42,422 nt of DNA from Synergistales bacterium (GTDB lineage Bacteria > Synergistota > Synergistia > Synergistales > Aminiphilaceae), in the NCBI GenBank assembly GCA_021736445.1, contig JAIPGA010000013.1:1-42422 (forward strand), written 5' to 3'. The translations under genes were made by a program, and so were the position numbers. This document shows positions 538-14,634 of the stretch, piece after piece. The notes under the pieces were generated by a model, which did no database searches, was not told the origin of the DNA, and worked only from the letters and a program-made list of their open reading frames with translations. Each line of letters opens with the position of its first letter. Position 1 is the first letter of the stretch.

Positions 538-1536
538 CTACAGCTGCCTCCACCGCTCCGGCAGCGTCGGATCCGCCAGCAGCGGACGCCCCACGCCGAC
601 CAGCCGGCAGGAACCGTCGCGGAGCAGCCGCTCGGCCGTCCCAGCGGAACGGATGCCGCCCGCGCAGACCGTGGGGGCCATGCCCACATGCTGGGTGATC
701 TCGCGGGCGAAGGGCTCGAAGTAGGCGTCGCCCTCGCCGTCGTAGCCGCACATATTTCCCGAGAGATCGAGGATGTCCGCACCCATGGCCACCAGCTCCC
801 CGGCCAGCCAGGCCGTCTCCTCGATCCGGAGCCCCCGGGGCTCCGCACAGGGGAGATGGTCGGCCATGCCCAGCCGTACCGAGAGGGGCGCGTCGCCGAT
901 GAGGTCCCGGACCACGTCGACGATGTCCCGCAGCAGCCGGGAACGCCCCCTGATATCGCCGCCGTATCTGTCGGACCGGTGGTTGGTCAGGGGACTGAGG
1001 AACTGCCCCAGCAGAAAGCCGTGGGCGCCGTGGACCTCCACACCGTCGTAGCCGGCGTGCATCGCCCGCAGAGCAGCGGAGGCAAAGGACTGGACGATCT
1101 CCGACAGATCGCTTTCGTTCAGCTCGCGGGGGACCGCCTCCCCCTCCAGACCGGGATGGGGCACGGGAGAGGGCGCCGCCGGCAGCGGCTCTTCATTCCA
1201 CAGCGCAGGATCCATCACCAGGCTCCCGCCGTGGTTGAGCTGCACCAGCGCCGGCACCCCGGCGCTCCGGAAGCACTCCGTCAGGCGACGGTGCCCCTCG
1301 ATCACGGCATCGTCGTGGAGCATCAGCTGCGTCTTCCGCACCCTGCCCGCGGCGTGTACGGCGTGGTGCTCCACCACCACCAGGCCCACACCGCTCCGGG
1401 CGAAGCCCTCGTAGATCTCCAGGGTCTTCTCGCCGGGCGTGCCGTCGGGCTGGGCGGTGCCGGAGAAGAGCGGCACCGAGACAAGGCGGTTGGCCATTCG
1501 CATATCGCGTACTCCAATGGGCTGCCACAACTGCAT
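538..1536 (-). CDS. NADH:flavin oxidoreductase, old yellow enzyme family
   Basis: A 332-residue FMN-dependent TIM-barrel oxidoreductase of the old yellow enzyme family, which typically reduces activated alkenes with NAD(P)H. Motifs include the N-terminal NRLVSVPLFSGTA, LVQLNHGG, the active-site block VEVHGAHGFLLGQFLSP followed by NHRSDRYGG, and the phosphate-binding C-terminal GGIRSAGTAE and VGVGRPLLADP. It is a single-domain form; the Fe-S and FAD domains of 2,4-dienoyl-CoA reductase are absent. ATG at 1536 is 8 bases after AGGAG; a GTG directly before it (1539) is an alternative. Fifteen bases separate it from ychF upstream. The substrate cannot be told from sequence. Confidence 0.92.
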   Translation of the reverse strand: MQLWQPIGVRDMRMANRLVSVPLFSGTAQPDGTPGEKTLEIYEGFARSGVGLVVVEHHAVHAAGRVRKTQLMLHDDAVIEGHRRLTECFRSAGVPALVQLNHGGSLVMDPALWNEEPLPAAPSPVPHPGLEGEAVPRELNESDLSEIVQSFASAALRAMHAGYDGVEVHGAHGFLLGQFLSPLTNHRSDRYGGDIRGRSRLLRDIVDVVRDLIGDAPLSVRLGMADHLPCAEPRGLRIEETAWLAGELVAMGADILDLSGNMCGYDGEGDAYFEPFAREITQHVGMAPTVCAGGIRSAGTAERLLRDGSCRLVGVGRPLLADPTLPERWRQL

Positions 1537-1551
1537 CACAGGCTCTCCTTT

Positions 1552-2646
1552 CTACACGTTGAACCGGATCTCGATGATATCCCCGTCCACAACGGGATAC
1601 CCCTTGCCCTCCAGGCGCAGGACACCGGCCTCCCGGCATTTCGCCGTGGACGCCCCGTGGGCGATGAACTCGTCGTAGTGCACCACCTGGGCCCGGATGA
1701 AGCCCCGGGCCAGGTCGGAGTGGATCGCCCCGGCCGCGTCCACCGCCGTATCGCCCCTGCGGAGCGTCCAGGCCTTCACCTCGTCCTTCCCGGTAGTGAA
1801 AAAGGAGATCAGCCCCAGCAGATCGTAGGCCTCGGCGATGAGGCGCTCCCGGCCCGGATCGGCGATCCCCAGCTCCTCCATGAACTCACGCTGCTCCTCC
1901 GATTCCAGCTCGGCCATCTCCATCTCCGTCCGGCCGTAGACGGAAACCAGCCGGAAACCGCTCTTTTCGGCCCGTTTTTTCAGTTCTCCGTAGCCGGGGA
2001 TGTCCGCTTCGGTCAGCTGGCTCTCATCGAGGTTGCAGACCACCAATTGCGGCTTCTGGGTCAGAAAGGTGAATCCCCGCAGCGCCTTACCCTCCTCCGG
2101 CGAGAGCTCCAGGTCCCGCAGGGGAAGCTCCTGCTCCAGATGTTCCCGGCAGCGCTGCAGCAGCTCCTCCTCGAAGCGCTCGCCGGCCTCTTTCTTCTTC
2201 TTGGCCTGCAGCCGGTCCAGGCGGTTCTCGATCACCTCCAGGTCCCGGAAGATCAGCTCCATGTCGACGATCTCCAGATCCCGCACCGGGTCGACACTCT
2301 CCTCGGGATGGGGCACCTCGGGGTTGTCGAAGGCCCGCAGGACATGCACCAGCGCGTCCGCCTCGGCCACGAAGGAGAGGAAGGCATTGCCCAGTCCCTC
2401 GCCTTTGCCGGCCCCCCGGGAGAGCCCGGCGAGGTCGACAAACTCCATGGACGCCGGTGTGGCCTTCTTCGGCCTGTAGAGCTCCACCAGCTTGTCGTGA
2501 CGCGGATCCGGCACCGACACCAGCGCCTTGTTGGGGTCCGTCTTCCCCCCCGCATAGGACTTTACCTCCGCACCCGCCTTGGTGATCACATTGAAGACCG
2601 TGGTCTTCCCCGCCAGGGGCAGGCCGATAATGCCGCAGTTCAGCAT
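1552..2646 (-). CDS. ychF: redox-regulated ATPase YchF (Obg-like)
   Basis: A 364-residue YchF/OLA1 P-loop ATPase, a near-universal translation-associated protein that binds ribosomes. The Walker A GLPLAGKT is at residues 8-15 and switch/G3 is VDLAGLSRGAGKGEGLGN. The G4 position reads CNLDE instead of NKxD, the change that gives this family ATP rather than GTP preference. A Lys-rich helical hairpin (about 135-190) and the C-terminal TGS-like domain ending GKGYPVVDGDIIEIRFNV complete the fold; length is normal. The open frame extends far upstream, but ATG at 2646 follows GGAGAG at a normal distance and starts the conserved N-terminus. First gene of the probable ychF-OYE-ROK run. Confidence 0.97.
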   Translation of the reverse strand: MLNCGIIGLPLAGKTTVFNVITKAGAEVKSYAGGKTDPNKALVSVPDPRHDKLVELYRPKKATPASMEFVDLAGLSRGAGKGEGLGNAFLSFVAEADALVHVLRAFDNPEVPHPEESVDPVRDLEIVDMELIFRDLEVIENRLDRLQAKKKKEAGERFEEELLQRCREHLEQELPLRDLELSPEEGKALRGFTFLTQKPQLVVCNLDESQLTEADIPGYGELKKRAEKSGFRLVSVYGRTEMEMAELESEEQREFMEELGIADPGRERLIAEAYDLLGLISFFTTGKDEVKAWTLRRGDTAVDAAGAIHSDLARGFIRAQVVHYDEFIAHGASTAKCREAGVLRLEGKGYPVVDGDIIEIRFNV

Positions 2647-2794
2647 GGTCTCTCTCCATCCTTTTGTCGCAGTGTGTGCGCTCCGTCCAGAAATCGGAGC
2701 CCCTTGCAATAGGTAAGCATAGCATACCTGCCGGCGGGGTCGTAGCGGCCCAATCGCTGAATTGTCTGAAGCTTGCGAAATTGTACCCGCATGA

Positions 2795-2822
2795 TTGACA
2801 ACTACGGACAATTTGCTATGAT
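2795..2822 (+). promoter_or_regulatory. sigma-70-type promoter for the 36-residue peptide
   Basis: TTGACA (2795-2800), 16-base spacer, TATGAT (2817-2822). It is the best consensus promoter in the window. The start would be near 2829, leaving about 68 bases of leader before the small gene at 2897. Confidence 0.75.
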
Positions 2823-2896
2823 ACGCGCGGCGTCGGCGAATGCCACGTGATGAACGTGATCGCGACGGTTTACTTTCACAAGGAGGAGGTATACCC

Positions 2897-3007
2897 ATGA
2901 ACGAACACCATATCCGCAAACAGGTTTCGCAGGCGATGTCTTTCTTCGGAAGCACCGCTGTTGCCCTCACGGCGGCTACGTACGGCGCAGCCATGCTGCT
3001 TCTGTAG
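2897..3007 (+). CDS. 36-residue hydrophobic peptide, function unknown
   Basis: A short gene with a very strong ribosome binding site (AGGAGGAGGT, 2881-2890) six bases before the ATG. The product has a polar, basic first third (MNEHHIRKQVSQ) and then about 22 Ala-, Leu- and Phe-rich residues that would form one membrane helix ending almost at the C-terminus. It has no Cys and no recognisable family. It has its own promoter (2795-2822) and a hairpin at 3091-3117, so it forms a monocistronic unit. It sits about 430 bases upstream of a radical-SAM gene on the same strand. It could be a small regulatory membrane protein, a type I toxin-like peptide or a peptide substrate; none is demonstrated. Confidence 0.6.
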   Translation: MNEHHIRKQVSQAMSFFGSTAVALTAATYGAAMLLL

Positions 3008-3090
3008 GAGGCAGCAACCGACACAACCAAAACCACGTGCATACCCACGTGTGCCTGACAGTGTACAACCCACAACCCACCTCTCAACTC

Positions 3091-3117
3091 GGGGAGACGC
3101 CCACTGGGCGTCTCCCC
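3091..3117 (+). terminator. hairpin after the 36-residue peptide
   Basis: GGGGAGACGCCC, a 3-base loop, GGGCGTCTCCCC: a perfect 12-bp stem 84 bases after the stop codon. There is no clear T-run, so termination strength is uncertain. Confidence 0.55.
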
Positions 3118-3208
3118 TTCGCATATCCCGCATGGACGCCGCAGCGAGGGTCGCACAGTCACGAAAAGCCGTCTTCCCGGGAATCCCGGAGAACTGAAAT
3201 CCCTCCAT

Positions 3209-3237
3209 TTTCCCTGCATCCATCTTCCTGATATACT
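3209..3237 (+). promoter_or_regulatory. possible distal promoter of the radical-SAM gene
   Basis: Extended -10 TGATATACT (3229-3237) with a poor -35 TTTCCC 17 bases upstream of the hexamer. It would give a leader of about 190 bases before 3437. Confidence 0.35.
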
Positions 3238-3328
3238 AAGCTCACAATAGCAGTAACCAGGAATGGTGTCTCCGCCAATCCGGCCCGGAAACGAAGGGGG
3301 GCCTGTGCAGGAATGTCGGAAATAGGAG

Positions 3329-3366
3329 CAAATGACCATGACAGGCCATTTGTCTGGTGATATAAA
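3329..3366 (+). promoter_or_regulatory. promoter and overlapping palindromic operator of the radical-SAM gene
   Basis: ATGACA (3338-3343), 17-base spacer, TATAAA (3361-3366). An inverted repeat, CAAATG-A-CC, six bases, GG-C-CATTTG (3329-3352), is centred on the -35 box, the usual place for a repressor site. No cognate regulator is identified. Confidence 0.5.
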
Positions 3367-3436
3367 TAACGAGTAGTCTGCCATAGACCACCTGGTTGCA
3401 TTCTGCGGCTTGATGGTTGAAAAGGAGGGATACATC

Positions 3437-4879
3437 ATGTCCAAAACACTGCTGGAACAGATGAAAGGCTACATCTCGGGAAAGCTCTTCGAACGCGTAA
3501 CCACCCTCATTGACGAGGGGGATGAAACCAAACTGGCGCAACTCTTCGACAACATCGCAAGCATCGCCCCTGCGCAATACCACAAGGAGGCCTTCGGCTA
3601 CCTGGCGCAGCTGGCGCGGGAGGGAAGCCCCTTCATGGGGGTCTTCCGCAGGATGTTCCGCAATCTCCACCCGAACTGCAGGAAGAAGCTCATCCAGAAC
3701 TTCCTGGTCAACTTCGTGGTCCTCAGCCGGGGGATTCGGGAACGCAAGGAGGCGCAGCTTGACACCCATCTGCCCAACTTCTTCGTGGTCTCGCCGACCA
3801 TGAAGTGCAACCTCCACTGCAAGGGATGCTACGCCAGCGGCTACGACACAAGCGAAGACCTGACCTTCGAAGAGCTCGACAAGCTCTTCTCGGAGGCCAA
3901 GGAGCTGGGGATGTACTTCTTCACCCTCTCCGGCGGCGAGCCCTTCTACCGCAGGGACATCCTCGACCTCTTCGCCAAGCACGACGACTGCTACTTCCAG
4001 GTCTACACCAACGGCACCCTCATCGACGACAGCGTGGCCGACAGGCTGGCCGAACTGGGCAACGTGGCCCCCATGATCTCCGTAGAGGGCGACAAGGAGG
4101 AGACCGACTACCGGCGGGGCGAGGGCGTCTACGAAACGGTGCGGGCCACCTTCCGGCGACTCAGGGAGAAGGGCGTGCTCTTCGGCTTCAGCGCCACCTA
4201 CACCAGCCACAGCGCCGACCACATCGCCCGGGACGAGTTCATCGAGGAGATGATCGAGGCGGGCTGCTCGGCGGGATGGTTCTTCCAGTACATCCCCACG
4301 GGATCCAAACCGGAGCTCGAATACATGGCCACACCGGAACAGCGCGTCTACCTCCATAAAAAGGTGGAACAGTGGCGTCTCGACTATCCCATCTTCCTGG
4401 GTGATTTCTGGAACGACGGGAAGTACGTGGACGGCTGCATGGCCGGCGGGGAACGCTACATGCACATCATCTCCAACGGCGACGTGGAGCCCTGCGTCTT
4501 CTGCCACTTCGCGGTGGACAACATCAGGGACAAACCGCTGGCCGAGGTGGTCCAGAGCCCCTTCTTCAAGGCCATACGGGACGCCCAGCCCTACGACGAC
4601 GACAACCTGCTCCGGCCCTGCATCATCATCGACCACCCCTGGGTGCTGCGGGATCTCGTCCAGAAACACGGAGCACGCCCGACCCACGACGGCTCCAGCG
4701 CCATGCTGGAGGAGCTGGCTCCGGGCCTCGACCAATACGCCCAGGAGCTCAAGGAGATCTACGACCCGCTGTGGGAGGAGCACGAACGGGCCCACTACGA
4801 ACGGCTCATCCTCTCCAGGGAGGACAAACCGCGCTCCCACCAGCGCTTCCAGAAACACCGGCCCGTCCAGACCTCCTGA
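3437..4879 (+). CDS. radical SAM protein with SPASM-like C-terminus, function unknown
   Basis: 480 residues. An all-helical N-terminal region (1-110) precedes a radical-SAM core with the cluster motif CNLHCKGC (C124, C128, C131), SAM motif GGEPF (166-170) and VYTNGTLID. The C-terminus carries four further cysteines (C334, C353, C356, C395) in the context GGERYMHIISNGDVEPCVFCHF, as expected for an auxiliary Fe-S cluster. This layout matches a conserved COG0535-type family of anaerobes whose reaction I do not know. ATG at 3437 is used because AAGGAGGG precedes it; an in-frame ATG at 3410 lacks a site. A 36-residue peptide gene lies upstream and a lytic transglycosylase downstream, but neither link is proven. 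Confidence 0.9.
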   Translation: MSKTLLEQMKGYISGKLFERVTTLIDEGDETKLAQLFDNIASIAPAQYHKEAFGYLAQLAREGSPFMGVFRRMFRNLHPNCRKKLIQNFLVNFVVLSRGIRERKEAQLDTHLPNFFVVSPTMKCNLHCKGCYASGYDTSEDLTFEELDKLFSEAKELGMYFFTLSGGEPFYRRDILDLFAKHDDCYFQVYTNGTLIDDSVADRLAELGNVAPMISVEGDKEETDYRRGEGVYETVRATFRRLREKGVLFGFSATYTSHSADHIARDEFIEEMIEAGCSAGWFFQYIPTGSKPELEYMATPEQRVYLHKKVEQWRLDYPIFLGDFWNDGKYVDGCMAGGERYMHIISNGDVEPCVFCHFAVDNIRDKPLAEVVQSPFFKAIRDAQPYDDDNLLRPCIIIDHPWVLRDLVQKHGARPTHDGSSAMLEELAPGLDQYAQELKEIYDPLWEEHERAHYERLILSREDKPRSHQRFQKHRPVQTS

Positions 4880-10490: not shown

Positions 10491-10526
10491 AATCATAAAA
10501 CAGGAGGCCGCCGAGGCGGCCTCCTG
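10491..10526 (-). terminator. rho-independent terminator of the lipoprotein gene
   Basis: On the minus strand CAGGAGGCCGCC-GA-GGCGGCCTCCTG (10526-10501) is followed by TTTTATGATT. It is a 12-bp stem plus T-run, 28 bases after the stop at 10554. Confidence 0.8.
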
Positions 10527-10553
10527 TAGCGTTACCGTTCAGACTGGAATGTG

Positions 10554-14599: not shown

Positions 14600-14634
14600 A
14601 GCCTGGAGGCATCCAGCCTCCAGGCTTTTTCTTT
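14600..14634 (+). terminator. rho-independent terminator of the aldolase gene
   Basis: AGCCTGGAGGC, 5-base loop, GCCTCCAGGCT, then TTTTCTTT: an 11-bp stem with T-run 30 bases after the stop. Confidence 0.9.

Follow-up and report, generated by a model that had tools for sequence, protein, structure and literature searches.

The sequence analysed here (hereafter the window) is a stretch of 42,422 nucleotides from a Synergistales genome. Near its start, a spacer of 790 nt separates ychF, which begins at position 2646 on the minus strand, from a divergently oriented radical-SAM gene. This spacer contains a promoter, a ribosome-binding site, a small open reading frame (ORF) and a hairpin (Table 1), all of which had been described in the original prediction at coordinates that proved essentially right. 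The promoter represents the top-scoring site on both strands of the window, the runner-up matching the consensus at 10 of 12 positions. The hairpin has the sequence GGGGAGACGCCC-ACT-GGGCGTCTCCCC, in which ACT forms the loop and all 12 base pairs are formed. The region 538–3437 was also found to be a synteny breakpoint, where the oxidoreductase-ychF pair is retained in both family relatives read there (L040 and L041). The gene located upstream of ychF varies between the genera of the family.

Table 1. Features of the ychF/radical-SAM spacer and the adjoining enzyme gene, in window coordinates
Feature	Position	Strand	Details
Inverted repeat AATTGTC/GACAATT, possible operator	2760–2813		arms 2760–2771 and 2802–2813; 83% complementary
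Sigma-70-type promoter, TTGACA-16-TATGAT	2795–2822	+	11/12 consensus matches; TG precedes the -10 element
Shine-Dalgarno sequence, AAGGAGGAGGT	2880–2890	+	read from the sequence; 6 nt ahead of ATG 2897
Small ORF, 36 codons plus stop	2897–3007	+	ATG at 2897; stop TAG at 3005–3007
Perfect GC-rich hairpin, 12 bp	3091–3117	+	followed by TTCGCATATCCC; may terminate transcription or stabilise the 3' end
Promoter-like site of the radical-SAM gene, ATGACA-17-TATAAA	3338–3366	+	10/12 consensus matches
Radical-SAM/SPASM-like protein, 480 aa	3437–4879	+	PF04055 and PF13186 above cut-off

The arrangement of these elements is rare. The motif AAGGAGGAGGT, followed after 4–8 nt by ATG, occurs only once in the entire 2.45-Mb genome. 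When a strong Shine-Dalgarno sequence was defined as AGGAGG or GGAGGT positioned 4–10 nt ahead of the start codon of an ORF of 20–80 codons, the small ORF at 2897 was the sole such ORF in the window to combine a hydrophobic stretch with a promoter, the remaining ones possessing neither. Chance occurrence was assessed by simulating the 790-nt spacer 2000 times with a first-order Markov model, which yielded 59 ORFs of 20–80 aa led by a Shine-Dalgarno sequence, three of them with a hydrophobic 19-mer. The full cassette, i.e., such an ORF with a hydrophobic 19-mer and a promoter matching the consensus at 10 or more of 12 positions, was obtained in none of the 2000 simulated spacers. With regard to codon usage, the forward frame scored highest of the six (0.21 bits per codon, a score slightly weakened by the model's crude gene set, in which the shadow ORF 181–2712 was counted as a gene). 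The synonymous codon score of the ORF exceeds that of 14% of real genes and is equalled by 15% of random synonymous versions, and codon usage is thus indecisive between coding and chance. On the basis of the rarity of the cassette and its unique Shine-Dalgarno sequence, with codon usage being less helpful, 2897–3007 is likely, but not proven, to be a real small gene.

The deduced 36-residue product, MNEHHIRKQVSQAMSFFGSTAVALTAATYGAAMLLL, combines a basic N-terminal segment (R7, K8) with a hydrophobic region, rich in Ala, which extends to the C-terminus, and exhibits neither cysteines nor a leader/core layout. AlphaFold2, run on the single sequence, returned one helix spanning residues 2–35 with a mean pLDDT of 88. 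Hydrophobicity is moderate, the best 19-residue Kyte-Doolittle mean being 1.43 and hence under the usual 1.6, while the positive-inside rule would place the N-terminus in the cytoplasm.

The original prediction named tBLASTn as a way to test whether the peptide is conserved and linked to the radical-SAM gene. Among the genomes of the class, tblastn returned a single copy, in the peptide's own genome, and none in the 182 others, a set which includes three further members of the same family, none of them congeneric, and for which a 36-residue query would overlook strongly diverged copies. Weaker matches, with E values of 0.07–0.5, are at chance level. Furthermore, the peptide was not found in phages, plasmids or viral contigs (IMG/VR), and it matches no entry in Pfam, NCBIfam, PHROGs or the PDB and no described family of small membrane proteins. 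Since a homologue was found nowhere among the collections searched, selection on the reading frame is unsupported, and the distribution is best read as that of a small gene restricted to its own lineage. The proposal of a self-contained gene for a small membrane peptide outside known families is, as far as sequence can show, borne out.

The downstream enzyme possesses a CX3CX2C motif and three additional invariant cysteines, C334, C353 and C395 (alignment A1); these three are the only invariant cysteines outside CX3CX2C, and the full SPASM cysteine motif CX2CX5CX3C, which many maturases share, is not seen. Matches at E <= 0.001 were obtained to 58 NCBIfam models, of which the best 25 are all under cut-off, NirJ2 being the nearest among these. 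Homologues of 55–68% identity were identified in 29 other Synergistales genomes, although not, at this level, in the three family relatives, while more distant relatives (31–43% identical) occur in Poribacteria, Maledivibacter and Bacteroidota. None of these 29 genomes (0/29) carries a recognisable peptide upstream of the enzyme gene; in 21 of them the upstream neighbour is SecF, as recognised by sequence, often with a protein of ~100 aa in between. In the genome to which the window belongs, secDF is located on a different contig (C3), indicating that the enzyme gene occupies a non-standard place here. The recurring secF neighbourhood of the radical-SAM gene may be a more interesting lead. A 5' leader RNA ahead of the enzyme (3236–3440) was considered and rejected, as its fold is no better than that of shuffled sequences (z 0.30).

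It had been suggested that the two genes constitute a peptide-modifying pair, in which the peptide would be the substrate of the enzyme. They adjoin on the same strand, the radical-SAM core is common to this enzyme and to peptide maturases such as SkfB, and the order of the two genes, with the small ORF first, is that of RiPP precursors and their radical-SAM/SPASM maturases (e.g., SkfA/SkfB). In contrast to such pairs, the enzyme occurs without the peptide across the rest of the order, with secF as its usual upstream neighbour, has a promoter-like site of its own, and falls far under the cut-offs of the peptide-maturase models among its best 25 matches of the 58, the top sub-threshold hit being NirJ2. 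The peptide, for its part, is devoid of Cys and of a leader/core pattern, its hydrophobic stretch continuing to the very C-terminus. On these grounds the pairing is not supported, and a substrate role appears highly improbable. As the enzyme is conserved without the peptide, has a different usual neighbour and carries its own promoter-like site, the adjacency of the two genes is best read as coincidence.

The hairpin at 3091–3117 is followed by TTCGCATATCCC, without a U-tract, whereas two other strong hairpins of the window, at 14600–14626 and, on the minus strand, at 10500–10527, have T-rich tails; whether it acts as an intrinsic terminator is consequently uncertain. Rfam searches returned nothing at the gathering score, and at a loose threshold only two chance-level matches (CC1840, E 0.2; caiA, E 8.6). 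The promoter is flanked and overlapped by the inverted repeat AATTGTCTGAAG/CTACGGACAATT, the 12-nt arms of which have their centres 42 bp apart and which may be an operator. The pattern AATTGTC-N10-40-GACAATT has one other match in the genome, an unrelated hairpin on contig C1, and for this reason no regulon can be named; a search for a second comparable site in the genome was negative.

The original prediction also offered a type I toxin or a regulatory membrane protein as possible identities. As a type I toxin, the product would be a membrane-damaging peptide kept in check at the level of translation by a small RNA, either antisense or located nearby. Type I toxins of E. coli span 18–51 aa (PMC7667032), a range which includes the 36 residues found here, and the basic head, the single predicted helix and the stand-alone intergenic gene would all suit such a role. 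The mRNA is structured (folding z of -2.87), although this low energy is partly due to the 3' hairpin, and a weak promoter-like site on the minus strand (3087–3060) faces the gene, although it matches the consensus at just 9 of 12 positions. This site is all that the minus strand offers, and no convincing antisense antitoxin gene was found at the locus. Burial of the Shine-Dalgarno sequence in mRNA structure, a frequent though not general trait of type I toxins, does not exceed that of controls, the unpaired probability being 0.25 against a control mean of 0.36 and equally low in 18% of controls. Furthermore, the gene is present as a single copy in the genome, plasmids and phages gave no matches, and Rfam contains no counterpart at its gathering score. 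A close comparison is with TimP of Salmonella, a 38-aa type I toxin with a signal sequence that is repressed by the small RNA TimR (PMC7667032): both are small, stand-alone, intergenic genes for a hydrophobic peptide, yet the signal sequence and TimR-like repression are features of TimP, and a convincing antisense RNA gene is not seen at the present locus. The short peptide and its one predicted helix are in keeping with both suggested identities, no convincing candidate emerged for the antitoxin gene that the toxin would call for, and a toxin is regarded as unlikely.

The remaining explanations, like the substrate role discussed above, are less likely than a membrane protein or a toxin. If the product were a small RNA and the ORF had arisen by chance, the strong promoter and the 3' hairpin about 290 nt away would be accounted for, conservation of the frame cannot be shown and codon usage is indecisive; the exceptional Shine-Dalgarno sequence, unique in the genome and ideally spaced from the ATG, and the lack of an Rfam match at the gathering score argue against such an RNA, which is deemed rather unlikely. 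About as doubtful is a new family of lineage-specific small membrane regulator or toxin, with a promoter controlled by a dedicated factor that would bind the AATTGTC/GACAATT repeat. Finally, the ORF could be what decay has left of the beginning of a longer gene, or could have come about by chance in a spacer without function, in favour of which are the synteny break, the variable gene upstream of ychF and the lack of a peptide homologue. A remnant of a longer gene was rejected, given that Pfam gave no match to the spacer's remaining frames, and the promoter, Shine-Dalgarno and ORF arrangement never arose in simulation, rendering decay or chance improbable.

The explanation that we favour, with somewhat better than even confidence, is that of a lineage-restricted, monocistronic small gene whose product is a small, presumably strongly expressed membrane protein. 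It draws on a cassette that has no equal in the window and was absent from all 2000 simulations, on the window's strongest promoter and a Shine-Dalgarno sequence unique in the genome, on the best codon frame of six and a confidently predicted single helix, and on an enzyme gene that is conserved in genomes where the peptide was not found and that carries a promoter-like site of its own. Counted against it are that no homologue appeared in the collections searched and no partner came to light, the indecisive codon usage, the marginal hydropathy of 1.43 and a hairpin without a U-tract. In the proposed scheme, the promoter would give rise to a short mRNA starting at about position 2829, from which the unusually strong ribosome site would direct efficient translation, while the hairpin would end or protect the 3' end and the radical-SAM gene would form a separate transcription unit. 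The 36-residue product would be a single helix inserted in the cytoplasmic membrane, its N-terminus, with R7 and K8, remaining cytoplasmic, and its most probable role would be that of a small subunit or regulator in helix contact with a larger membrane protein.

Bacteria possess small membrane proteins of a single helix, such as CydX, AcrZ, MgtS and KdpF, that serve larger membrane proteins as subunits or regulators. The present peptide resembles them in its length, its one helix and its short charged head, and differs from them in that it has no Pfam, NCBIfam or PHROGs match, is monocistronic and has no partner gene adjoining. It can plausibly be regarded as an orphan among small membrane proteins, ordinary in kind. 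With the radical-SAM link unsupported, the known peptide-modifying chemistry is not extended by this locus. If expressed, the gene would provide a bacterial order that has received little study with one more small membrane protein that had escaped annotation, and would indicate that such genes can be detected from the strength of their promoter and ribosome site alone.
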